A stretch of DNA of 32,466 bases from Rubrobacter sp. (GCA_013697825.1 JACCWD010000129.1:1-32466), one strand, 5' to 3'. Counted from the stretch's first letter, positions 1 to 26,919 are shown. Notes: generated from the letters alone by a model not told the origin. Made by a program: numbers and translations.

Positions 1-111
1 TTCAGCCAGATCACTGCCCTGTTTCCGAGGAAGATCCACGCGGTGAGGGCGGAAGGCTTCGAGTTGAAGATCGTCTGTTTCATCCTGGCGTTCGCTATTC
101 AGTTCTTATAG
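1..111 (+). CDS. C-terminal fragment of an ORF cut by the window edge (...FSQITALFPRKIHAVRAEGFELKIVCFILAFAIQFL*), resembling the C-terminus of a DDE transposase
   Basis: Frame 1 is open to TAG at 109-111. The tail pattern resembles my recollection of IS transposase C-termini; family assignment is tentative. Confidence 0.4.
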   Translation, partial: FSQITALFPRKIHAVRAEGFELKIVCFILAFAIQFL

Positions 112-162
112 GGGGCAACTCGGGTTATTAGATTAAACGTAGGAAGAATACAGGCATTCGTA

Positions 163-2010
163 TTGTCCAGACATGGAACCAATTTGCTGCTCATTGATAA
201 TGAAGCTCTTGAAAATGAGGAGAAGAAAAAATTAGAAGGGTATTGTTCTTTTGACGGTTATGGAGGATACAAAGTATTGCCATCAGCCGTGAATGCTCAC
301 ATTCCGGCGCAAAACATAGAAACCGTGCTTCCTTTGCTTGAGAAAGCGCATAAAAGTTTCTTGAGCAAGGCTGTTGGCACAGTGGGTGGCGGCACGACAC
401 CTTTTCTCAAATATCATTCTCCGGGAATAGTCAAGTATCTCAGGAAATCAGTCAGCCACGAGATTTCCGAACCTTCGTATGTAGCGAAAAACGTATTGCT
501 TGAATCGAATGTCGAATTCGGAAAAGAAGGAAAGGATTTTACTGATCAGTTTCCTTTGAACACCATCCTCTTCGGCCCTCCCGGAACCGGGAAGACGTAC
601 ACCGTGCAACGGAAAGCTGTCGAGATTATCGATCCTTCAGCGGCGAACCTTCCGGATGGGGAGATCGGGGAGAAGTTCCGGGGGTATCGGGACGAGGGGC
701 GCATCGAGTTCGTCACTTTCCATCCTTCTTTCTCGTATGAGGAGTTTGTGGAGGGGTTTCGGTATGACCCGAGCGCGAGGGTTCCGACGCTTCACGACGG
801 GATTTTCAAGGAGATATGCGGGGCGGCGGACGGGGTGGATGAGGTGTCTTCCGAGAGTGGTGGGCGGGTGTGGAAGGTTTCGCTCGGTGGGCGCGGGGAG
901 CATCGCGTCTTCGAGCGGTGCATGGAGAATGGGGAGATCGCGGTCGGGTGGCTCCATGGCATCGACCTCACCGGAGCGGAGGGTGGAAGGATCGCGGAGC
1001 TTTTCCGGGAGCATCATCCCGGAAGCAATTTCCGATCCACGAACCGCCTCGTGAACGAGATGCACGAAGGGGACTATGTCGCGGTGTACGATTCCCCGAC
1101 GGCGATACGCGCGCTCGGCGTGGTCACGGGCGGCTATGAATTCAAGGACGGATACGAAGACGGATACCACCACGTCCGCCCCGTCCGATGGCTCGACCGA
1201 GAGGTGCGCGACATCCACGCGCTTAACGGAAACACGCGCCTCACAATGGAGACCGTATACAATCTTTGGCGCATCCCACCGTCGAAGCTCGCCGCGCTCC
1301 TCTCGGACACACCCGAGTCGGACACTGACAAACCATACGTCCTCATCATCGACGAGATAAACCGGGGGAACATCTCGCGCATCTTCGGGGAACTCATCAC
1401 GCTTTTGGAGACGGACAAACGGCGCGGGGCGGAGAATGAACTTTCCGTGAAGCTGCCGTATTCGCAAAAAGACTTCGCCGTTCCGGGGAACCTCCACGTC
1501 GTCGGGACGATGAACACCGCCGACCGGAGCATCGCGCTCCTCGATGTCGCCCTCCGCCGACGCTTCGAGTTCGAGGAGATGATGCCGGATGCGGGGGTGA
1601 TTCGGAAGGTTCTCACGAAGAAAGAAGCCGAGACGGACATCATCGATCTCATATGCTCGGTCTTCGAGGTTTTGAATGCCCGCATCACGGCGCTTCTCGA
1701 CCGCGACCATCAAATCGGCCACTCGTACTTCCTCGGCGCGACTTCGCCGGATGGTCTTCATCACACGCTTTATCGCCGCGCCTTCCCGCTCCTTCAGGAA
1801 TATTTCTATAACGACCCGGCGCAAATGAGGCGGCTCCTCGGCGAGTATCATTCCGACGACGGGGGGAGCGGCTTCATCGAGAAACCGAAGATGAATTTCG
1901 GAAACGGGGATTTTTCGTTCGACGCGGAGGCGGACGATGCCCCATGGACGTTCCACGAGTACGATGCGGAGGAACTCGAAGACGCTCTCCGAAGGACGTT
2001 CCTCGAATGA
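163..2010 (+). CDS. mcrB: McrB-type AAA+ GTPase of a type IV restriction system, with an EVE/PUA-like domain inserted between Walker A and Walker B
   Basis: GPPGTGKTY Walker A, YVLIIDEINRGNISRIFGELITLLE Walker B, GTMNTADRS McrB signature, RRRFEF. The inserted segment WKVSLGG...IAVGWLHGIDL...GDYVAVYDSPTAIRALGVVTGGYEF...YHHVRPVRWL is EVE-like. TTG start at 163; the true start is uncertain. Confidence 0.88.
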   Translation: MSRHGTNLLLIDNEALENEEKKKLEGYCSFDGYGGYKVLPSAVNAHIPAQNIETVLPLLEKAHKSFLSKAVGTVGGGTTPFLKYHSPGIVKYLRKSVSHEISEPSYVAKNVLLESNVEFGKEGKDFTDQFPLNTILFGPPGTGKTYTVQRKAVEIIDPSAANLPDGEIGEKFRGYRDEGRIEFVTFHPSFSYEEFVEGFRYDPSARVPTLHDGIFKEICGAADGVDEVSSESGGRVWKVSLGGRGEHRVFERCMENGEIAVGWLHGIDLTGAEGGRIAELFREHHPGSNFRSTNRLVNEMHEGDYVAVYDSPTAIRALGVVTGGYEFKDGYEDGYHHVRPVRWLDREVRDIHALNGNTRLTMETVYNLWRIPPSKLAALLSDTPESDTDKPYVLIIDEINRGNISRIFGELITLLETDKRRGAENELSVKLPYSQKDFAVPGNLHVVGTMNTADRSIALLDVALRRRFEFEEMMPDAGVIRKVLTKKEAETDIIDLICSVFEVLNARITALLDRDHQIGHSYFLGATSPDGLHHTLYRRAFPLLQEYFYNDPAQMRRLLGEYHSDDGGSGFIEKPKMNFGNGDFSFDAEADDAPWTFHEYDAEELEDALRRTFLE

Positions 2011-3290
2011 AGGGCGGAGCGAAGACCATCCCGATGCGCGAGTGGGAAAAGCTCTCGTACGAAAAGATTGGGAATGAAAGCGTCGCCCGGCTCGAAGAGG
2101 CGAACACCCGGCTCGGCGGAAATGTCTTCGACTTTTTCCGGCACGAGTTCCGGGCGCGGAGCTTCGTCGGGGTCGTGGCGGCGGGCGGGACGGTGGTGGA
2201 GGTTCTTCCGAAGATCCACGGCGACGAAAAGGAAAGCCTCGGGTATCTTCTCGCGCTTCTCCGGTATACGCGTACGCTCTCGACGAAGCGGGGGGATGAG
2301 GCGGGCCTCGGGGAGAGTCATGGGAGCTTCCTCGAAGCGTGGATCTCTTTTTTCGCCGCGGAATTGAATGGCCTCCTTCGGACGAGTTTCAAACAAAAAT
2401 ACGTCGAGGTCGAGGAGCGGAGCGCGTTCGTCCGGGGGAAGCTCCTCACCGAGCGCGACCTCGACGGCTCCTCGGCCCTCTCCGCCCGGTACCCGTGCCG
2501 ATACGAAATATTCACCCCGAACCACCTCCTCAACCGCACCCTCAAATTTTGCAACGCCCTCCTCATGAAGACGACCCGCTCCCCCGCGAACCGGGCGACC
2601 CTCCGGCAAAACGACTTCCTCCTCGCCGATGTGGACGACGCGCCGGTGTTCGTCCGCGACCTCGACCGGATACACCTCGACCGCCTCGCCCGCGAGTATG
2701 CGCCGATCCTCGCCCTTTGCCGCCTCCTCCTCGAAAACTCCGCCCTCGACCTCCGTGCCGGGCGCATCACGCAACTCGCCATCGTCTTCGATATGAACAT
2801 CCTCTTCGAGAAGTTCGTCGCGGAGTTTTTGCGGAGGAACAAAGAACGTATACGCATCGGAGGGTGTCGGATCGAGAAGGTCGAGACGAAAGAAAACCTC
2901 GGAAAGCTCTTCGGGGAGTTCAAAATGGAGGTGGATGTCGTCCTCCGCACCTCCGGCGGGGCGTATCTCCTCGACACGAAATACAAAGTCCTCGGAGACG
3001 AGAAGAACCACGGCGGGATTTCGCAGTCGGATTTTTATCAAATGCATGCTTATGCGACCGCCGGGGAGAAGGGGTATGACGGGGTCATCCTCCTTTATCC
3101 GAGGACGACGGCGTCCCCGTCCGAGAGGGCTCTCGTCAACGAGCGCGACGGCGTGAGGCTTTTCGTGCGGTATGTGGATGCGGTGCGGATACATGCCGGA
3201 AGGGGGAGCGTGGACGTGAAGGCCATCGAGAAGGAAATGAACGAGGCTTTCGAGAGCGTCGAGAGTGTCGAGGAAAGGGCTTCGGCGTGA
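2007..3290 (+). CDS. mcrC: McrC-type nuclease subunit (PD-(D/E)XK)
   Basis: ATG at 2007 overlaps the mcrB stop (ATGA). EVDVVL...YLLDTKYK is the McrC PD-(D/E)XK motif. The longer ORF start at 1944 is less likely. Confidence 0.88.
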   Translation: MKGGAKTIPMREWEKLSYEKIGNESVARLEEANTRLGGNVFDFFRHEFRARSFVGVVAAGGTVVEVLPKIHGDEKESLGYLLALLRYTRTLSTKRGDEAGLGESHGSFLEAWISFFAAELNGLLRTSFKQKYVEVEERSAFVRGKLLTERDLDGSSALSARYPCRYEIFTPNHLLNRTLKFCNALLMKTTRSPANRATLRQNDFLLADVDDAPVFVRDLDRIHLDRLAREYAPILALCRLLLENSALDLRAGRITQLAIVFDMNILFEKFVAEFLRRNKERIRIGGCRIEKVETKENLGKLFGEFKMEVDVVLRTSGGAYLLDTKYKVLGDEKNHGGISQSDFYQMHAYATAGEKGYDGVILLYPRTTASPSERALVNERDGVRLFVRYVDAVRIHAGRGSVDVKAIEKEMNEAFESVESVEERASA

Positions 3291-4528
3291 GTGTACATGC
3301 GAGGGCGATCATCATGGTGGTGTCGCGCACGGACGCGGTGAGGCGGGCGGTTGAGCGGCTTTCGCCGGGGGTGGTGGGTATCATCTCTTCGCAGGAAGTT
3401 CTCGGGGAGGTGGCGGTCGAGTGCCATGGGATGCGGGATCGGGCGCGGTTTTTGTATGGGATCGTGGATTCCGCGATGGAGATCGAAGACGCTTTCGAGC
3501 GTTTCGAGAGGCTCCTTTCGGAGCTTGAGAATATCGGGTATTCGCCGGATGACATCGCGCTCGACGCGACGGGCGGGACGGCTCCCATGAAGATCGGGGC
3601 GGCTCTCGCGGCGATGACGCACGGTATTCGGATGATCCACCAAAGAGTTCCACAGGATTACGTGGACGGTGAATGGAAGCGCGACGAATCGAAAGCCATC
3701 GAGATCTTCCCGATGGAGAACCCGCTCGAATCCACCGGACTCCTCCGCGAGGGGCAAGGCGTCGAACTCTTCGACCGCCGCGACTATGGGGCCGCCGCGC
3801 TCATCTTCCACGATGTCGCCCGGAAGGTCGAGGGGGCGGAGCGTGCCCATTACTATACTGGCCTCGCCCTCCTCGCCGACGGATATGGGGCGTGGAACGT
3901 CGCCGACTATGGGACGGCGCTTCAAAAACTTCCCGCCGCGAGAAAAGAGTTCTCGGTCGGGTTCTCGGTCGGGTTCTCGGACGCGGCGTTCGCGGGGAGG
4001 GCGGCGAAGCTCTCGGCCGTGATCGCCGCGAACCTCGGGTTTTTGCAGCGCGTCCGGGGAAAGCTCTCCGCCGAGAAAGTCGTGGATATGCTCGAGAACG
4101 CGAGGCGGCGCATAGCCGATCAAAGCCGCCACGACGACGGCGTCGCCCGTCTTTACCGATGCGTCGAAATGCTCCACCAATGGCGACTCGAAAAACACCA
4201 CGGCGTCCGCGCCACCGACACGAACTGGCAAAAAGTCCCCGAAGAAGCGAGAAAAACGTTCCTCGAAAAATCCGGCCTCCCCGACCTTCCGAAGCACCTC
4301 AACCTCGGCCACGCCCGCGCCCTCGACCGCATCCTCTCCGACTCGGGCGAAGAAGACGAAAGCATCTTCCGCGACCTCCTCCGTCAAAGAAACAACTCCA
4401 TCCTCGCCCACGGCCTCGAACCGATCGGGGAAAGCTCCGCCCGCCGCTTCCTCGAATATGTGGACACGATGGTGGACGAGGGTGGAATATCCGCCTCGGC
4501 GCGGCATATACGGCTCGGCGAGTTGTAA
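3287..4528 (+). CDS. CARF-HEPN protein, TIGR02710/Cas02710 (Csm6-related)-like, coupled to mcrBC
   Basis: GTG at 3287 overlaps the mcrC stop (GTGA). CARF-like ALDATGGTAPMKIGAALAAMTHG...NPLESTG. C-terminal HEPN-like R-NNSILA-H (RQRNNSILAHG, codons 4388-4411). Confidence 0.75.
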   Translation: MSVHARAIIMVVSRTDAVRRAVERLSPGVVGIISSQEVLGEVAVECHGMRDRARFLYGIVDSAMEIEDAFERFERLLSELENIGYSPDDIALDATGGTAPMKIGAALAAMTHGIRMIHQRVPQDYVDGEWKRDESKAIEIFPMENPLESTGLLREGQGVELFDRRDYGAAALIFHDVARKVEGAERAHYYTGLALLADGYGAWNVADYGTALQKLPAARKEFSVGFSVGFSDAAFAGRAAKLSAVIAANLGFLQRVRGKLSAEKVVDMLENARRRIADQSRHDDGVARLYRCVEMLHQWRLEKHHGVRATDTNWQKVPEEARKTFLEKSGLPDLPKHLNLGHARALDRILSDSGEEDESIFRDLLRQRNNSILAHGLEPIGESSARRFLEYVDTMVDEGGISASARHIRLGEL

Positions 4529-4766: not shown

Positions 4767-5747
4767 CTACCGAATGGGGACACCCCGAGCCGGAAGATAC
4801 GCTACGTTGTTCGGCGTGAAAGAAGCCTCAATACCCAGAGAGTGCATCGCATGGATCAAGACACAGAGGTTATGGCAAAGTACCTTGCATAGAGCCTCGT
4901 TCACTTGCCCCGTATCACTCTTGCTCCGCACTGAATCCCCGAACTTGGCCTTCATCATTGAGAAGACAGATTCGACGCTTGATCGGCGGTGGTAGTGGGT
5001 TAGGAACTCTTCGCGATTGAACATGAAGTAGTGATACATCCTGGACCACGCGGAATCTTCGGCGGGCGGCAGGCTGTTGGACTTGAACGGGATGAACGGC
5101 GTGGCTCCGATGCCCTCTGTGGCGTCCGCGTTCTTGTGAGAGAGATACGCCTTATCCGCGCTTATGCGTTCAACGTCGAAGTGGGCGGCGGTTCTCTCAA
5201 TGAGCGGGACGAAGTAGTTGGTGTCATGGGCGGTCCAACCGGAAACCTCGACGCCGGTTACGACCTTCGTGTTCGTGCCGCACATCAGGTGCAACTTGAC
5301 CCATTCGCGGTTGTCCGTAACGCGCCCGTGCTTTTTGCTGTACCACCGGACGAACCTCGACGTGCTGAAGCCCGAAGAGTCAACGGCGAAATCATGCTCG
5401 ACCGCCTTTAGTGGCAAGCTGCTCGTCGTGACGAGGCTCCCCAGCGTCCCGGTAAGCTCCGGCTTCGATAGGTAGTTGCTCACGGAATTGAAGTGAGGGG
5501 TACTGTCTATCAGGCCGTCGGCGTAGGCTTCCCGAAGGTCGCTAGTAAAACGCCTGCTAGAAAACCCGCCATAGACCTTGTAGACGGACGCGAAAAGCAT
5601 GTCCGAAAGCGGGAGCCGGGGCCTTCCCCGACCCGTTTGCGGAGGCTGCGGAACGGTATTGCAGAGATCGGCCAAGAGTGCCACAAAGCGCGTCCTTTCC
5701 TCGCTTTGCGCGGCGTTGTAAGCGGTCCATTTATGGCCCTCTATCAT
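4767..5747 (-). CDS. DDE transposase (IS4/IS5-like group)
   Basis: DFAVDSSGFSTSRFVRWY...WVKLHLMCG; SADKAYLS; YHRRSSVESVFSMMKAKFGDSVRSKSDTGQVNEALCKVLCHNLCVLI. Confidence 0.85.
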   Translation of the reverse strand: MIEGHKWTAYNAAQSEERTRFVALLADLCNTVPQPPQTGRGRPRLPLSDMLFASVYKVYGGFSSRRFTSDLREAYADGLIDSTPHFNSVSNYLSKPELTGTLGSLVTTSSLPLKAVEHDFAVDSSGFSTSRFVRWYSKKHGRVTDNREWVKLHLMCGTNTKVVTGVEVSGWTAHDTNYFVPLIERTAAHFDVERISADKAYLSHKNADATEGIGATPFIPFKSNSLPPAEDSAWSRMYHYFMFNREEFLTHYHRRSSVESVFSMMKAKFGDSVRSKSDTGQVNEALCKVLCHNLCVLIHAMHSLGIEASFTPNNVAYLPARGVPIR

Positions 5748-5826
5748 GTGGTAAGTATACGTGAGCGGTCACGCATAGCAACAGCGATTCCTTTTATATA
5801 AGCCGAATTCTTTATTTTGCCGAAGG

Positions 5827-6885
5827 CTATTCGACTAGCCGCAAGCGTGGCATCTCATGCACATAAAGGGAGTGGAATTCTTCTGTGTAGAGTGCTACGG
5901 TCTTGCTGAGCTCCGGGATACTGTAACCGTAGTGCCTCAAATGCAAGTCCACCACATCTTTAACGATGGATGGCTCTTCTTGTGCTATCGGGTAGGGTTC
6001 GTTGGTTCGGTATCCGAGTTCACCCATCTTCATCCAAAAGCGTTTAGCTTGTCTATCGGTAATCTGATCGAGGTCGCGGGCGCGCCGGATCAGCGCAGAC
6101 ATCGCTACCTTCCAATGGTATTTCAACGACCCTAACTTCTGGAAGTTAAGGGGTCTTAAGTCGGACTTGATCTCCTTTGCGGGCATCAGTAGCTCGGCTG
6201 CAAACTTGTCGGCTTCCCTCTCTTGCTCTACCGATGGCAAGGTGTGCATGACAACGTGTCCTATTTCATGCGCCAGAGTGAAGCGCATCCGATCCCCAGG
6301 AATATCCCTATTGACGAAGAAGAACGGGGGCAGCCCTGGAGTTCGCAGACTGATCGCGTCGAGCTTGTGAGTACCGAACGAACCGCTAATCACGATGCCG
6401 CCAGCATTCTCTATTGAGCGCACGAGGTTCTGAACGGGCCCGAGGGGTAGACGCCAGCTTCTACGGATCAGTTGGGCGATCTGTTCCGGTGAATCGTAAT
6501 CCTCAATGTCCATCCTGACGAAGCCTGCGTCCGTTTCAATCTCAACGCTTCGCAGCAGCCGCGCAATCTCTATGCGCCGAATGTTCAGGGTCGCCTGTAG
6601 TTCACGCTGTTTACTGAGAGGCAGGCTCTGGCGTTTGCGATGGTATATACACGGGCTGCCGTAACCATACCTACGGTCACGCCGGAAAAAAAAGGCGGTT
6701 GGGTACTCCACCGCTTCAGCTATTGCTTTGAGGCGATCATCTGGAATCTCTAGCACGCCGCTCTCAAATTTTGAGATGGCAGCCTGAGACACACCCGCCT
6801 TTTTCGCCAGTTGCGTTTGGCTGTAGCCACGCGACTCGCGGGCGAGTATGAGCATTTCGGGGTTTGGTCCGTCTATTGGCCTCAA
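5827..6885 (-). CDS. XRE-type HTH plus ImmA/IrrE-type metallopeptidase (DUF955)
   Basis: N-terminal HTH LAKKAGVSQAAISKFESG; zinc motif FTLAHEIGHVVMH; EREADKFAAELLMP. Confidence 0.9.
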   Translation of the reverse strand: MRPIDGPNPEMLILARESRGYSQTQLAKKAGVSQAAISKFESGVLEIPDDRLKAIAEAVEYPTAFFFRRDRRYGYGSPCIYHRKRQSLPLSKQRELQATLNIRRIEIARLLRSVEIETDAGFVRMDIEDYDSPEQIAQLIRRSWRLPLGPVQNLVRSIENAGGIVISGSFGTHKLDAISLRTPGLPPFFFVNRDIPGDRMRFTLAHEIGHVVMHTLPSVEQEREADKFAAELLMPAKEIKSDLRPLNFQKLGSLKYHWKVAMSALIRRARDLDQITDRQAKRFWMKMGELGYRTNEPYPIAQEEPSIVKDVVDLHLRHYGYSIPELSKTVALYTEEFHSLYVHEMPRLRLVE

Positions 6886-7496
6886 CTCTGGCCGTCTTCT
6901 TCATCCCTCCGCTCGCCCGGTTTAGGTCCGACTCGTGGCGCGCGCGATCCGTCCTGTGGAGTAGGCGGCTCAAGCACGTCATCTTCCGTATCGGCTTCAC
7001 CGCTGATGTCCAGCATCCACTGTAATTCCGGTCCGATGCTGCACGTGACCGCTATGGTCTGGATGGATGTTTCAAGTTCGTCCAACAGGTACCCGGCAAC
7101 CAGTCTGGTAGATTCGGCTGGCATGCCGGGAAGCTGAAGTTGATAGGAGAACTGTAGCTGCTGCCTAGTAGGGATGTTGCTGGTTCTAAAGCGACGACTT
7201 CTGTACTTCTTGAAACGGACAACCACTCTATCTTCAAAGGTGAGAACGAGGAACCCACGGTTGTCTCCAACATGCACACCAGGATCGTCCGCGAACTCTT
7301 TGCGGGCCAAGTCGGTAATGTGGTTATGGACCATAAGGGCTCTGGCTGAGGCACTGAGCGGAATCCGAAGATCGGGCGCACGCTTCCCGAATTCCTCCCA
7401 CTTGCCCCAGCCGCCTTGTATACAGGCGGCCAGTTTCCTCGCACGTTGCGGATACAGGATCGCTTGTGCCTCTTCGGCAGATATAGTTTCATTCAT
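6882..7496 (-). CDS. Hypothetical protein translationally coupled to the XRE-ImmA/IrrE gene
   Basis: ORF with 4-nt overlap with the downstream ImmA/IrrE gene on the minus strand; no family recognised. Confidence 0.7.
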   Translation of the reverse strand: MNETISAEEAQAILYPQRARKLAACIQGGWGKWEEFGKRAPDLRIPLSASARALMVHNHITDLARKEFADDPGVHVGDNRGFLVLTFEDRVVVRFKKYRSRRFRTSNIPTRQQLQFSYQLQLPGMPAESTRLVAGYLLDELETSIQTIAVTCSIGPELQWMLDISGEADTEDDVLEPPTPQDGSRAPRVGPKPGERRDEEDGQS

Positions 7497-7535
7497 GCAT
7501 CGCAGTGTGAAGTATCAAGGGGTCAAAGTCAAGCA

Positions 7536-7558
7536 ATTTTATAACCTATTTTATAACC
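7536..7558. promoter_or_regulatory. Direct repeat ATTTTATAACC x2 (12-bp period) in the divergent intergenic region; candidate operator/promoter
   Basis: ATTTTATAACC at 7536-7546 and 7548-7558, upstream of the minus-strand HTH operon. Confidence 0.45.
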
Positions 7559-7657
7559 AAGCTACCCTAGAATACTTTAGCGAATGGAACCCTCGCATGT
7601 TGTATTCACAACACTACGCCACTTGTGATGCCAGACCGCTCACGGTAATATTGCTAT

Positions 7658-7828
7658 ATGTCAGAAGAGAAGAACCCGGCGGCGGTGGAGCTTGGCAGGC
7701 GTGGCGGGCTAAAAGGCGGCAAAGCTCGTGCCGCTAAGATGACACCTGAAGAGAGATCCGAGTCGGCGCGTAAAGCTGCTAAGGCGCGTTGGGATAAGAA
7801 ACGCCGAGAAGAGTCTGAGTCTTCGTAG
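7658..7828 (+). CDS. Small KGG/GGRKGGKARA-type basic protein (56 aa)
   Basis: Manual translation: MSEEKNPAAVELGRRGGLKGGKARAAKMTPEERSESARKAAKARWDKKRREESESS*; a common small-protein pattern. Not in the supplied ORF list (below its length cutoff). Confidence 0.65.
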   Translation: MSEEKNPAAVELGRRGGLKGGKARAAKMTPEERSESARKAAKARWDKKRREESESS

Positions 7829-7858
7829 CCCTCGTTAGGTTCTTAGTCAGGGGAAACC

Positions 7859-9499
7859 ATGCACCGTTCCATTACCGAAAACACTCTGTTCTACGGCGAC
7901 AACCTCTCAATCATGCGTGAGTACATCGCAAGCGAGAGCGTAGACCTCGTTTACCTGGACCCGCCATTCAACTCCAGCCGCACCTACAATGTCCTCTTCC
8001 GCGATGAATCCGGCAAGCACTCGGAAGCTCAGATAGAAGCCTTTGAGGATACTTGGCACTGGGGGCCGGATGCCGAACAGACGTACCACGAGCTAGTTAC
8101 CGAAGCCTCAGACGAGGTATCCAAAGCCGTAGCCGCGCTTAGGGAATTGATCGGGACGAATCAGGTTATGGCGTACCTCGTGATGATGGCCGCTCGGCTC
8201 GTGGAACTACACAGAGTTCTGAAGCCAACCGGAAGCCTGTATCTTCATTGTGATCCGACCGCCAGCCACTATTTGAAGATCGTCTTGGATACTATCTTCG
8301 ACCCGCGCCAGTTCAGGAATGAGATCATCTGGAAGCGAACCAGCGCACACGGCGACGCAAAGCGCCGTTACGCCGACGTTAGCGATACGATACTCTTCTA
8401 TACAAAGACCAATCAAGCCGAGTTCTCCGTACAGTACAAGCCACACGACCAGTCCTATGTGGACAAGTTCTATCGGCACGTAGACCCCGACGGGCGACGC
8501 TACCAGATTGATAACTTGACTAGTCCTAACCCTCGCCCCAATCTCGTATACGACTACAAAGGATACAAGCCTCACCAGTACGGTTGGCGAGTATCACGGG
8601 AACGTATGGAACGGCTAGACGCAGAAGGTAGGCTTTACTTTCCTAAGAATCTCGATGGAAGAATTCGTCAGAAACGGTACTTGGACGAGATGCATGGCAA
8701 CCCAATCAGCAACGTATGGGATGACGTGCAGCCTGTAAGCTCTCATGCAGCCGAACGTCTCGGATACCCGACACAGAAGCCCTTAGCCTTGCTAGAGCGG
8801 ATCATCAACGCAAGCAGCAATCCCGGCGACGTGGTTCTTGACCCGTTCTGCGGCTGCGGAACGGCCATAGCAGCAGCGCAGAAACTAGGGCGCAAATGGA
8901 TCGGGATAGACGTTACCCATCTCTCTATCGCCCTTCAGAAGTACCGCCTCGAAGCCATGTTCCCTGGCATCGAGTTTGAAGTCAGAGGAGAACCGGGAGA
9001 CGTAGGAGCCGCAAGGCAACTAGCCCTGGACGACCGCTTTCAATTCCAGTGGTGGGCATTGTCTCTAGTCAGAGCAAAGCCGCTTGGAAGCAAGTCTGGG
9101 GGCAAGACCGGGAAAAAGGGTGCAGACAGAGGGATAGACGGGATCATCAACTTCTTTGACGGAGGTGGCAAGCCGAAGAGGGTACTCGTGCAGGTCAAGT
9201 CAGGCAAAGTGAAAAGTGGCGACATACGCGACCTTGTAGGCACTGTAGAACGCGAAGGGGCAGCGATAGGGGTCTTCATCACGCTGGAGAATTCGACCCG
9301 CGACATGAGGACAGAAGCCGCCAGCGCGGGCTTCTACCGCTCCGATGGCTGGGGCCAGGACTACCCGAAGATTCAGATACTCACTACAGAAGAACTGTTG
9401 CACGGCGCGGGAATAAAAATGCCCCCGCAGTACGGTACGTTCAAAGAATCCCAACGAGTACGAGCAGACGCGGAAGAGCATCCACGCCTCAACTTCTAA
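7859..9499 (+). CDS. DNA (N6-adenine/N4-cytosine) methyltransferase fused to an Mrr-like PD-(D/E)XK nuclease domain
   Basis: DLVYLDPPFNSSRTYN (motif IV), VVLDPFCGCGTAIAAAQKLGRKWIGID (motif I). C-terminal RGIDGIINFF...VLVQVKSGKV nuclease motif. Confidence 0.85.
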   Translation: MHRSITENTLFYGDNLSIMREYIASESVDLVYLDPPFNSSRTYNVLFRDESGKHSEAQIEAFEDTWHWGPDAEQTYHELVTEASDEVSKAVAALRELIGTNQVMAYLVMMAARLVELHRVLKPTGSLYLHCDPTASHYLKIVLDTIFDPRQFRNEIIWKRTSAHGDAKRRYADVSDTILFYTKTNQAEFSVQYKPHDQSYVDKFYRHVDPDGRRYQIDNLTSPNPRPNLVYDYKGYKPHQYGWRVSRERMERLDAEGRLYFPKNLDGRIRQKRYLDEMHGNPISNVWDDVQPVSSHAAERLGYPTQKPLALLERIINASSNPGDVVLDPFCGCGTAIAAAQKLGRKWIGIDVTHLSIALQKYRLEAMFPGIEFEVRGEPGDVGAARQLALDDRFQFQWWALSLVRAKPLGSKSGGKTGKKGADRGIDGIINFFDGGGKPKRVLVQVKSGKVKSGDIRDLVGTVEREGAAIGVFITLENSTRDMRTEAASAGFYRSDGWGQDYPKIQILTTEELLHGAGIKMPPQYGTFKESQRVRADAEEHPRLNF

Positions 9500-10949: not shown

Positions 10950-11273
10950 TTATTTGAGTATGCCTTCGCGCTTCTCTTCTTCATAAAGACGCTCGACGAC
11001 GAACTCCTTGAGCATCGTTTGATAGCCTTTGCCTTTGCTCTCGGCGAGCGTTTTCAATCGGTCGAGTACATCCTCGTCGAAGCGCACCGCTACGGGCTTC
11101 GTTCGAGGACGGGGTGGAGGGAGCGCATCTTCCGGCGTGCTTCTCGCCTTTTCGAGGTACTCCTCCGTTACTTCGTGGGTGTCCCAGAATTCCCGCGCCT
11201 CTTTCTCGTTCATTTCCGGCGGCACCTCGGAAGGGTCGGTTAAGGGGATCATTCGCGCTTCGCCATCGCTCAT
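10950..11273 (-). CDS. brnA: BrnA-type antitoxin
   Basis: MSDGEARMIPLTDPSEVPPEMNEKEAREFWDTHEVTEEYLEKA...KPVAVRFDEDVLDRLKTLAESKGKGYQTMLKEFVVERL. Start overlaps the brnT stop by 4 nt. Confidence 0.85.
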   Translation of the reverse strand: MSDGEARMIPLTDPSEVPPEMNEKEAREFWDTHEVTEEYLEKARSTPEDALPPPRPRTKPVAVRFDEDVLDRLKTLAESKGKGYQTMLKEFVVERLYEEEKREGILK

Positions 11274-11563
11274 CTTTTTCTCCTTCGGTACGATCTTTTC
11301 TCGTTTTTGCTCGCGTCTCGGGCTGTGACCACCCGCGTCGTCCCACCGCCGCGCTCCATGACGACGACGAGAATTCTGCCATCCTCGGTCGCGCCGATCA
11401 CACCGGCCCGCCCACCATGCGCCGGGAATGGAACCCGGCCCGGATCCCAAACCGCGTCCTCGGCCTCCCACGTGTCCACCCCGTGCCGCACAATATGCTC
11501 GATGTTGTCTTCATCCCAGTCGAACACTCGATGCCTTCCTTTTGTATATTCTATAGTATTCAC
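11270..11563 (-). CDS. brnT: BrnT-family toxin
   Basis: VFDWDEDNIEHIVRHGVDTWEAEDAVWD...RILVVVMER...TRVVTARDASKNEKRSYRRR. Confidence 0.87.
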   Translation of the reverse strand: MNTIEYTKGRHRVFDWDEDNIEHIVRHGVDTWEAEDAVWDPGRVPFPAHGGRAGVIGATEDGRILVVVMERGGGTTRVVTARDASKNEKRSYRRRKR

Positions 11564-14443: not shown

Positions 14444-14538
14444 GTGTGGGGCGAGGGAAAGGAGCCTCACGACCGGGGCGTATTAAACTGTGCATAAGGG
14501 AAAGGCTTCATAGAGTCTCTTTGGGAAAGGAGAGAGCG

Positions 14539-16107
14539 ATGGCTGAGGCACCGTACTTGATGGGCATCGACGGAGGAACCGGGGGCGTGAGGGTTGGCAT
14601 CTTCGACTGCGAGGGAACCGCCCTCGTCTTCCGCGGTGTCGAACACGGCACGAACTTCCCGCGCTCGGGGTGGGCGGAGCAAAGCCCCGACGACTGGTGG
14701 TCGTGCCTGTGCGAGGCGAGCCGGAAAGCCGTCGCCGACAGCGGCGTCCCGCCCGAGGAGATCGCCGGTATCTCCACCGACGCCACCACATGCACCGTCG
14801 TCGCGATGGACGGGCAAAACCGGGTGCTTCGACCCGCGCTTTTATGGATGGACGTGCGGGCCTCGGATCAAGCCCTCCGCGTTCAGCAAACCGGGGACCC
14901 GGCCCTCAAATACAACGGATACGGCCCCTCCTCCGCCGAGTGGATGCCCTCGAAAACCTTGTGGCTGAAAGAGAACGAGCCGGAGACGTACGACGCGGCG
15001 GAGCGCATATGCGACTACGCGGACTGGATGACCTTCCGCCTCACGGGCGAGTGGACGGCCTCCATAAACACCGCGAGCTTCCGCGCATACTACGACCGCG
15101 ACACCGGCGGATGGCCGGAGAGTTTGTATGACTCCCTCGGAATCGGCGACGTGCTCGAAAAGTTCCCCCCGCGAGTCCTCGACATGGGAGCGGCGGTCGG
15201 CGGTTTGACAAAGGAAGCCGCCGAAGAGATGGGTTTGCCGGAGGGTATTCCGGTCGCGCAAGGCGGGGGCGACGCTTTCGTCGGCGCGCTCGGACTCGGC
15301 GTGACGGAGCCGGGGAAGCTCGCTCTCATCACCGGCTCTTCGCACGTCATCGTCGGACAGGCCGCCGAGCCTCACTACGGGCGCGGGTTCTTCGGGTCGT
15401 ACACGGACGGCATCATGCCGGGGCAATACAGCGTGGAGGGCGGACAAGTGAGTACCGGCTCCATCGTCGCGTGGTTCAAAAACCAGTTCGCCGGGGAGGC
15501 GATGGCCGAGGCGAAGGAGCGCGGCGTCGACCCGTACGACGTCCTCAACGAGCAAGCCCGCGACATCCCCGTTGGATCCGACGGCCTCATCGTCATCGAC
15601 TATTTCCAGGGGAATCGCACCCCGTACACCGACCCGCTCGCCCGAGGCATGATGTGGGGGCTTTCGCTCGGCCACACCCCGGCCCATATGTTCCGGGCGA
15701 TCCTCGAAGGCATTTGCTACGGAACCGAGCATATCTTCCGCACGATGCGCGAGAAGGGCTTCCAGCCGGGCGAGTGCGTCGTCGCCGGAGGCCCGACGAA
15801 GAGCGACCTTTGGATGCAAATGCACGCCGACGTCTCGAACGTCCCCGTCTCCTTCACCACCGAGGGCGAAGGCCCCGTACTCGGCTCCGCGATGCTCGCC
15901 GCCGTCGGAGCGGGCGTGTACCCGGACATCCAAACCGCCGCCGAGCATATGGTCCACACCGAACGAACCATCGAACCGAACCCCGAGGCGCATGAGGCGT
16001 ACAAATTCTATGTGGATCGGTACATAGACACGTACCCGCAAATGCGCGAGCCGATGCACGCGACCGCCCGCCACCTCGCGGGCGAGGGAAAGATGGCCGA
16101 AGCGTAG
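14539..16107 (+). CDS. FGGY-family carbohydrate kinase (copy A)
   Basis: LMGIDGGTGGVRVGIFD N-terminal FGGY phosphate motif; ALITGSSHVIVG; close paralog of 25360-26919. Confidence 0.88.
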   Translation: MAEAPYLMGIDGGTGGVRVGIFDCEGTALVFRGVEHGTNFPRSGWAEQSPDDWWSCLCEASRKAVADSGVPPEEIAGISTDATTCTVVAMDGQNRVLRPALLWMDVRASDQALRVQQTGDPALKYNGYGPSSAEWMPSKTLWLKENEPETYDAAERICDYADWMTFRLTGEWTASINTASFRAYYDRDTGGWPESLYDSLGIGDVLEKFPPRVLDMGAAVGGLTKEAAEEMGLPEGIPVAQGGGDAFVGALGLGVTEPGKLALITGSSHVIVGQAAEPHYGRGFFGSYTDGIMPGQYSVEGGQVSTGSIVAWFKNQFAGEAMAEAKERGVDPYDVLNEQARDIPVGSDGLIVIDYFQGNRTPYTDPLARGMMWGLSLGHTPAHMFRAILEGICYGTEHIFRTMREKGFQPGECVVAGGPTKSDLWMQMHADVSNVPVSFTTEGEGPVLGSAMLAAVGAGVYPDIQTAAEHMVHTERTIEPNPEAHEAYKFYVDRYIDTYPQMREPMHATARHLAGEGKMAEA

Positions 16108-25318: not shown

Positions 25319-25359
25319 CATTGAAAGCGCGTAGGCAAACACGGGGAAAGGGGAAAAGC

Positions 25360-26919
25360 ATGGCCGAAGGGCCGTATTTGATGGGCATAGATTTCGGGAC
25401 GGGGGGCGTGAGGGTCGGCGTCTTTGATGTCGAGGGGAACCCGCTCGTTTTTCATGGAGTCGAGTGGGAGACGGAGTATCCTCGGAGCGGATGGGCCGAG
25501 CAAGACCCGGGCGTGTGGTGGAAGAGCCTCGTCGAAGCGACGAACAAAGCCGTCGCGGATAGCGGCGTATCGCCCGAGGAGATAGCGGGGATCTCGACCG
25601 ACTCCACGGCTTCGACGGTGATGGTCATCGGGGAGGACGACGAGCATCTCCGGCCGGCGATCATGTGGATGGATGTCCGGGCCTCGGATCAAGCGTCGAG
25701 GATCGCCGCCACGAGCGATCGTGCATTGAAATATTCGGGATACGGCGACGTGTCGGCGGAGTGGGGTCTTCCGAAGGCGTTGTGGATGAAGGAGAACGAG
25801 CCGGAGAACTTCGAGCGGGCGAAGCACATTTGCGACTGCAACGACTGGCTCATCCACCGCCTCACAGGCGAGTGGGCCTCCTCCATAAACATCGCGAGCG
25901 CGAAGTATTTCTACGACCGCGACGAGGGAGGATGGCCCGAAAGCCTCCTCCGATCCATCGCCTTCGAGGATTTTTTGGAGAAGTTCCCGAAGGACGTCCT
26001 CGACCTCGGAGCGGTGGTCGGCGGTTTGCGGAAGGAGGCGGCGGAAGAACTCGGTCTCAAGGAAGGCACGCCTGTCGCGCAGGGAGCCGTGGACGCGTAC
26101 GCGGGCGCTCTCGGCCTCGGGGTGGTCGAGCCGGGGAGGCTCGCGCTCATCACCGGCTCGTCGCACGTCATGATCGGGCAGTCCGCCGAGCCGATACACG
26201 GCCGCGGTTTCTGGGGCTCGTACACCGATGCGATGATCCCCGGTCAATACACGGTCGAGGCCGGGCAAGCATCCACCGGTTCGGTCGTGGCGTGGTTCAA
26301 AAACCGCTTCGCTGGGGTCGCCGCCGAGGAGGCGAAACGGCGCGGCGTGGACACGTATGACGTCCTCAACGAGCTTGCCGAGAGGGTTCCGATCGGCTCG
26401 GACGGCCTCATCGTCATGGAATATTTCCAGGGGAATCGTTCGCCGCACACCGATCCCTTGGTTCGGGGGATGATGTGGGGGCTTTCGCTCGGGCATGGGC
26501 CGGGGCATATGTTCCGGGCGATCATCGAGGGGATATGCTTCGGGACGGAGCAGATTTTCCAGGCGATGCGCGGCCACGATTTCGAGCCGAGGATAAACGT
26601 CGTCTCCGGCGGCCCGGCGAAGAGCGACTTGTGGATGCAAATGCACGCCGACATCTCGAATTTGCCCATCGCGTTCACGAAGGTGAGCGAAGGCCCGGTC
26701 CTCGGGGCGGCGATGCTCGCCTCGGTGGGGGCGGGTATTTACCCGGACGTGCAAACCGCGTCTGCGAACATGGTCCACGTCGAACGGAGCATCGAGCCGA
26801 ACCCGGAGGCGCACGAGGCGTACAAATTCTATATGGATCGCTACGTCGAGACGTATCCGAAGATGAAGGACCTCATGCACGAGATGTCGCGCCACGAGGC
26901 GGGCAGCGCGACGACGTAA
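25360..26919 (+). CDS. FGGY-family carbohydrate kinase (copy B)
   Basis: LMGIDFGTGGVRVGVFD; GSDGLIVMEYFQGNRSPHTDP; paralog of 14539-16107. Confidence 0.88.
   Translation: MAEGPYLMGIDFGTGGVRVGVFDVEGNPLVFHGVEWETEYPRSGWAEQDPGVWWKSLVEATNKAVADSGVSPEEIAGISTDSTASTVMVIGEDDEHLRPAIMWMDVRASDQASRIAATSDRALKYSGYGDVSAEWGLPKALWMKENEPENFERAKHICDCNDWLIHRLTGEWASSINIASAKYFYDRDEGGWPESLLRSIAFEDFLEKFPKDVLDLGAVVGGLRKEAAEELGLKEGTPVAQGAVDAYAGALGLGVVEPGRLALITGSSHVMIGQSAEPIHGRGFWGSYTDAMIPGQYTVEAGQASTGSVVAWFKNRFAGVAAEEAKRRGVDTYDVLNELAERVPIGSDGLIVMEYFQGNRSPHTDPLVRGMMWGLSLGHGPGHMFRAIIEGICFGTEQIFQAMRGHDFEPRINVVSGGPAKSDLWMQMHADISNLPIAFTKVSEGPVLGAAMLASVGAGIYPDVQTASANMVHVERSIEPNPEAHEAYKFYMDRYVETYPKMKDLMHEMSRHEAGSATT

Follow-up and report, generated by a model that had tools for sequence, protein, structure and literature searches.

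Gene order at the locus

The DNA analyzed here (the window, 32,466 nucleotides) is the entire contig C134 of a metagenome-assembled Rubrobacteraceae genome (3.2 Mb, 215 contigs, 82% complete). At its start, three plus-strand open reading frames, namely, mcrB, mcrC and a gene for a CARF-HEPN protein, are joined by the two 4-nt overlaps that a preliminary description had reported, ATGA at 2007-2010 and GTGA at 3287-3290. That description placed the 5' limit of the set at position 163, which has to be corrected: the first 125 bases come from the end of an insertion sequence (IS), and the McrB frame is open from position 112. The features are the following.

1-125, plus strand: 3' end of an IS that interrupts mcrB; the transposase frame ends at 111, and an 18-bp terminal inverted repeat occupies 108-125
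Contig C166, about position 15126 (locus L162): the other IS end; the terminal inverted repeat is common to both contig ends
126-130, no strand: 5-bp target-site duplication TATTA, with a second copy just before the IS on C166
127-2010, plus strand: mcrB without its first ~54 codons; 681 aa when summed over the two contig ends
859-1317, plus strand: EVE/YTH-fold domain inside the AAA+ domain of McrB, between Walker A and Walker B
2007-3290, plus strand: mcrC, with a McrBC-family N-terminal domain and a PD-DxK nuclease (..MEVDVVL..YLLDTKYK)
3287-4528, plus strand: CARF-6H-HEPN protein (Csm6-like, TIGR02710), 413 aa
3563-3589, plus strand: CARF motif II DATGGTAPM, with A99 (3581-3583) in place of the cA4-binding K137 of TtCsm6, the Csm6 of Thermus thermophilus
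4388-4411, plus strand: HEPN active-site motif RNNSILAH; R368, N369 and H375 correspond to R415, N416 and H422 of TtCsm6

The contig with the other IS end was found by searching for the upstream neighbor of the McrB of Rubrobacter radiotolerans, a UvrD-type helicase-nuclease, the N-terminus of the R. radiotolerans McrB being some 55 residues longer than that of the McrB in the window. At the end of C166, a gene for such a helicase-nuclease is followed by an overlapping ATG that opens the frame MPDRYSEE...LREYGI and then by the IS end; the inverted repeat on both contig ends is ACCC[A/G]AGTTGCCCCCTAT. The frame of the empty site reads ...REYGIRLNVGRIQAF..., and its R. radiotolerans counterpart reads ...RNYGIRLNVGRIEAF.... 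Since the IS ends, the TATTA duplication and the reading frame all fit, the mcrB of the window is split by the IS and, hence, McrBC is probably inactive in the sampled genome, where the mcrC and ribonuclease (RNase) frames are still open.

The gene order upstream, on C166, is WYL-WYL-UvrD/PDDEXK-UvrD/PDDEXK. Each subunit of the pair combines a UvrD helicase with a PD-(D/E)xK nuclease, the arrangement characteristic of AdnAB, and the best PDB match of the second subunit is 6PPU chain B, the mycobacterial AdnB (4e-58). The adnB and mcrB genes overlap by 11 nt, and adnB, mcrB and mcrC are directly consecutive in the complete R. radiotolerans genome. By bridging the contigs via the split IS, we infer the full operon WYL-WYL-adnA-adnB-mcrB::IS-mcrC-CARF/HEPN, the adnB-mcrB bridge resting on the matching ends of C166 and C134. 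Thus, the three genes do overlap, as expected of the single coupled unit that had been proposed, but the unit reaches further upstream and takes in two AdnAB-like genes; a stand-alone McrBC-RNase pair is rejected because the genes belong to an adnAB operon.

The trio is not a product of chance, since it recurs in the sister species together with the 4-nt mcrC/CARF overlap and since the dN/dS values, calculated between the two members of the genus, are 0.27 for CARF, 0.29 for McrC and 0.37 for McrB, which shows purifying selection on all three genes.

Base composition varies along the operon, with 41% G+C in the N-terminal remainder of mcrB (125-560) and 58-63% elsewhere. Between the CARF gene and typA (4767-9499) lie genes for an IS5-like transposase, for an RmrA-like HTH/M78 peptidase, which is accompanied by a small partner, and for a fusion of a DNA methyltransferase with an Mrr-like domain; in the sister species, typA is located directly 3' of the CARF gene. 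Further along the window, two small adjoining minus-strand genes (10950-11563) resemble, by eye only, a BrnT/BrnA toxin-antitoxin pair, and two FGGY-like carbohydrate kinase genes (14446-16107 and 25321-26919), some 10 kb apart, are 72% identical at the DNA level.

McrB, its inserted domain, and McrC

The McrB protein matches AAA_5 (8e-14) and the McrB GTPase in PDB (2e-65), contains the Walker A motif GPPGTGKT, a Walker B region and the MNTADRS motif, and is 58% identical to McrB of R. radiotolerans; McrC matches PF10117 (1e-61) and is 64-69% identical to McrC proteins of Rubrobacteraceae. The original assignment to type IV restriction is borne out by the presence of both an AAA+ GTPase with the MNxxDRS signature and the McrC nuclease, with the qualification that mcrB is interrupted by the IS.

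The insert in McrB comprises ~153 residues and is missing in R. radiotolerans McrB, but is common in the McrBs of plasmids and viral contigs. The Pfam EVE profile gives no match to it, and Pfam and PDB sequence searches leave the domain unnamed. The AlphaFold2 (AF2) model of the insert, with a pLDDT of 90, is matched by Foldseek to YTHDF2 (3e-5), a YTH reader of m6A, and to MJECL36 and PH1033, both of which are EVE-like proteins. Hence, the "EVE insertion" of the preliminary description was correct as a fold class, the predicted fold being YTH/EVE-like.

On rhizobial and Sphingomonas plasmids (L134, L138, L140), PD-(D/E)XK and UvrD genes are found beside McrBC with an inserted-domain McrB, a WYL gene being present once, so that the AddAB/AdnAB-McrBC link occurs in Alphaproteobacteria, too. 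The 20 viral McrB loci encode McrB relatives without CARF or AdnB neighbors, and none combines McrBC with CARF/HEPN; viral carriage of the CARF gene is rejected, given that viral contigs yielded no match to it.

A Csm6-like protein with an altered CARF pocket

The product of the third gene exceeds the curated cut-offs of TIGR02710 (126 bits vs 83.9), of the Csm6 HEPN profile PF09670 (77 vs 27) and of the Csm6_6H profile PF22205 (32 vs 27.6), and its best PDB relative, both by sequence and by fold, is TtCsm6, in agreement with the family assignment made at the outset. The two motifs noted at that time are present as well, DATGGTAPM at residues 93-101 and RNNSILAH at residues 368-375, the latter conforming to the R-x4-6-H pattern of HEPN with an asparagine following the arginine; these R, N and H residues are retained in the unbroken family copies. 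The whole-chain AF2 model is modest (mean pLDDT 64, with most of the CARF part at 66-92), so the fold assignment is based on the CARF part and the HEPN assignment on the sequence profiles. Accordingly, the third gene is predicted to encode a Csm6-like CARF-HEPN RNase.

In TtCsm6, the K137A substitution eliminates cA4 binding, T59A/S60A abolishes RNase activity, and Y161 is required for cA4 cleavage (PMC10897365). The protein encoded in the window has VSR in motif I and A99 at the K137 position, i.e. the cA4-binding residues of TtCsm6 (T59/S60 and K137) are not kept. Alanine or threonine occupies the K137 column in all 15 family copies examined, CRISPR-linked and adnAB-linked alike, and lysine does so in 10 out of 10 TIGR02710 homologs aligned from outside the family. 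In addition, the family copies differ from TtCsm6 in having (V/A)SR instead of TLGTS in motif I and HQRV instead of the Y161 strand. A changed motif is no proof of a different ligand, as Cam1, with its unusual motif I and somewhat different pocket, binds cA4; the substitutions are, therefore, evidence, albeit not proof, of a changed ligand or a changed binding mode in the family copies.

CARF effectors are thought to rely mainly on cyclic oligoadenylates (cOA) produced by Cas10. We searched for cOA synthases with three profiles, PF22335, PF18144 and PF18182 (Cas10, SMODS and mCpol, respectively). None of the three was found in the genome to which the window belongs (82% complete), nor in G005 and G017 (99-100% complete). 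Cas10, in particular, was absent by PF22335 from this genome, which agrees with the original report that no Cas10 was visible, and likewise from the sister species, G005 (100% complete), G017 (99%), G011 (99%) and other carriers of the RNase gene; in the genome of the window, which is 82% complete, a missed cas10 is possible. SMODS was not detected in any of the six genomes tested, and the lone mCpol match (G039) coincides with a Cas10 match, so CBASS and mCpol are rejected as ligand sources. Also rejected is a type III locus next door: none adjoins the genes or lies elsewhere on the contig, and the genome yielded no Cas10. With no enzyme for the alarm molecule found and a key binding residue changed, the CARF-HEPN RNase probably responds to a signal other than the CRISPR alarm molecule.

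The same genome contains, on the 4.7-kb contig C153 (L193:3805-4599, minus strand), an isolated 5'-truncated relative of cas6; neither an array nor any further cas gene was seen on that contig, and the gene is likely to be a CRISPR remnant.

Partners of the RNase gene

A TIGR02710 match is present in 16 of the 40 family genomes, the one in G038 being weak. The gene follows adnAB and mcrBC in G000 and, across two contigs, in G001; it follows adnAB in the absence of mcrBC in G017 and G008; and it neighbors cas6, in operons of type I CRISPR systems or what is left of them, in G002, G005 (plasmid), G009, G010, G011, G016, G019, G020, G022, G025 and G028, where an MNT/HEPN-like pair often accompanies it. 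In a set of Rubrobacteraceae type I operons (L033, L034, L036, L037, L042 and L136; types I-B, I-B/I-D-like and I-D-like), the CARF-HEPN gene is placed between the effector genes and cas6, sometimes with the MNT nucleotidyltransferase/HEPN-like pair, and several of the respective genomes lack Cas10. The annotation of the R. radiotolerans plasmid shows cas7, CARF and cas6 genes in a single run. In its chromosome, R. radiotolerans has adnAB-mcrBC without CARF in the slot where G017 has adnAB-CARF, with HDAC-like and GGDEF/EAL genes downstream in both; G017 has neither Cas10 nor the cas6 of the family and yet keeps adnAB-CARF/HEPN. In the phylogenetic tree, the CRISPR-linked copies fall on one side of a branch (support 91/85), and those linked to adnAB group together with weak support (72/49). 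The RNase thus appears to form two groups that correspond to two kinds of partners, AdnAB(-McrBC), this grouping being weakly supported, and type I CRISPR.

McrBC and CARF/HEPN occur together only in the genus of the window, in two species; the best TIGR02710 and McrC loci outside this genus, among 397 Actinomycetota genomes, show no such combination. Hence, recurrent linkage to mcrBC, which had been put forward as a check, holds within the genus and is not seen in the other genomes examined. The other two findings that would have refuted the description did not turn up, the fold being CARF/HEPN-like and no type III locus adjoining the genes. The proposal of a two-part module made of McrBC and the RNase does not stand, considering that orthologous CARF-HEPN genes accompany adnAB without mcrBC as well as type I CRISPR. 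The related idea of a two-tier defense is still plausible, except that the RNase is not consistently paired with McrBC and its recognition of modified DNA. Since the partners vary, the McrBC link is best viewed as one state of a moving association. Overall, the original observation is sound apart from the start of mcrB, and its interpretation is partly right.

Several copies of the gene are damaged: that of the sister species has a TAA stop after RNNSILAHGL, just past the catalytic histidine, and frameshifts are present in two of those linked to CRISPR. Such a pattern is to be expected of an effector that is costly and readily lost, but also of decay.

In a different genus (G012, L186:10874-15457), an Hma-like SNF2 helicase gene (1522 bits against the HmaA profile) and a frame resembling a methylase are located behind adnAB. 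The 3' end of adnAB looks like a docking slot for defense genes.

A possible role of the RNase

The following scenario, which we favor with roughly even confidence, accommodates these data: the Csm6-like RNase serves DNA-targeting immunity as its arm of last resort, causing dormancy or abortive infection, works without a Cas10 cyclase and senses a signal other than cA4. McrB would detect modified DNA via its EVE/YTH-like insert, McrC would cut this DNA, and the AdnAB-like helicase-nuclease would degrade the DNA ends; once engaged, these DNA-degrading arms would give rise to a nucleotide signal distinct from canonical cA4, which would be sensed by the CARF domain, whereupon the HEPN domain would cleave RNA. 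Most likely, the RNase would then be a late, cell-halting arm behind the enzymes that destroy the invading DNA. That AdnAB, McrBC and type I CRISPR all destroy DNA suggests, short of proof, that the signal is tied to DNA destruction. A bolder version, which we offer tentatively and regard as rather unlikely, is that a family-specific Csm6-like branch has left cyclic-oligoadenylate signaling and now responds to something that the degradation of DNA yields, such as short oligonucleotides or a different nucleotide set free by AdnAB/McrBC or Cascade-Cas3; if so, type I CRISPR and type IV restriction would have gained a Cas10-free abortive RNase arm.

It is also conceivable, if somewhat unlikely, that the 3' end of adnAB is just an insertion slot, where McrBC and CARF-HEPN landed separately as passengers or decaying cargo, with no joint mechanism. 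Indeed, the content of the slot differs between genera, being mcrBC alone in G005, CARF-HEPN alone in G017 and G008, the Hma-like SNF2 gene in G012, and both mcrBC and CARF-HEPN in G000 and G001; moreover, each two-system genome has one broken member, mcrB::IS in the genome of the window and the CARF stop in its sister. Mere cargo, however, would hardly account for the 4-nt mcrC/CARF overlap in both species and the 11-nt adnB/mcrB overlap, nor for dN/dS ratios well below unity in all three genes with the HEPN and McrBC motifs intact.

Alternatively, the RNase could guard AdnAB, the counterpart of RecBCD, firing upon its inhibition by phage proteins and independently of McrBC. AdnAB is the constant partner outside the CRISPR loci (G017, G008, G000, G001), and the tandem WYL regulators upstream are reminiscent of DNA-damage circuits (PafBC, PMC9122601); nevertheless, we consider such a guard improbable, because adnAB has no RNase behind it in G005 and G012 and the copies linked to type I CRISPR do not need adnAB. 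Similarly improbable is an ordinary Csm6 that is served with cA4 or cA6 by a type III Cas10 located elsewhere in the cell, in some strains, and missed in the draft assembly: TIGR02710 members from outside the family do occur in type III loci, and the RNase gene coexists with Cas10 (PF22335) in five family genomes (G002, G009, G010, G020 and G025), but the type III operon of G010 comes with a CARF-HEPN-like gene of its own that is distinct from the family one, the near-complete G005 and G017 have no detectable Cas10, and the equivalent of K137 is lost throughout the copies examined.

The components of the operon are of known kinds, a Csm6-type effector, McrBC and AdnAB. What makes it interesting is a branch of CARF-HEPN proteins that lacks both a visible cyclase and the lysine that binds cA4. 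This conserved lineage is associated with systems that degrade DNA (AdnAB, McrBC and type I CRISPR), occurs in, among others, two genomes that are 99-100% complete and in which Cas10 was not detected, and carries a substitution of the residue on which cA4 binding depends in the closest relative of known structure. Thereby, the question of what CARF proteins sense in the absence of Cas10 becomes a direct binding problem within one small family.

Comparison with known systems

A literature search under the family name TIGR02710 retrieved no papers, although an earlier mention within CARF classifications is possible, and no papers that join McrBC with AdnAB were found. The predicted RNase resembles TtCsm6 (PDB 5FSH, 8JBB, 8JH1) in its CARF-6H-HEPN layout, full-length profile match, R-N-x5-H motif and fold (Foldseek E 5e-12), but the identity in the fold alignment is ~20%, and its gene is found with AdnAB-McrBC rather than with Cas10. 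The upstream pair is similar to mycobacterial AdnAB (PDB 6PPU) in consisting of two adjoining UvrD + PD-(D/E)xK genes; unlike the mycobacterial pair, it is accessory in Rubrobacteraceae (4 of 13 genera) and has defense genes behind it. The closest parallel for the McrBC part are the McrBC systems with an EVE/YTH domain (Bell et al. 2020, PMC7641849), such as Thermococcus McrB with its YTH domain, which share the AAA+ GTPase with its NTAD motif, the EVE/YTH-fold reader and the PD-DxK nuclease of McrC; here, in contrast, the reader is placed within the AAA+ domain, a CARF-HEPN RNase is the third gene, and AdnAB-like genes lie upstream. CoCoNuTs, in which McrBC relatives likewise neighbor CARF and HEPN genes and for which a DNA-then-RNA echelon has been proposed, are characterized by an NxD motif, by coiled coils and by CARFs resembling those of RtcR or Can (PMC11090510). 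Because the NxxD GTPase motif marks the canonical McrB branch and NxD the CoCoNuT branch (PMC11090510), the NTAD motif of the McrB in the window rules out its identity as a CoCoNuT, and its system further differs in that the CARF domain is fused to a Csm6-type HEPN.
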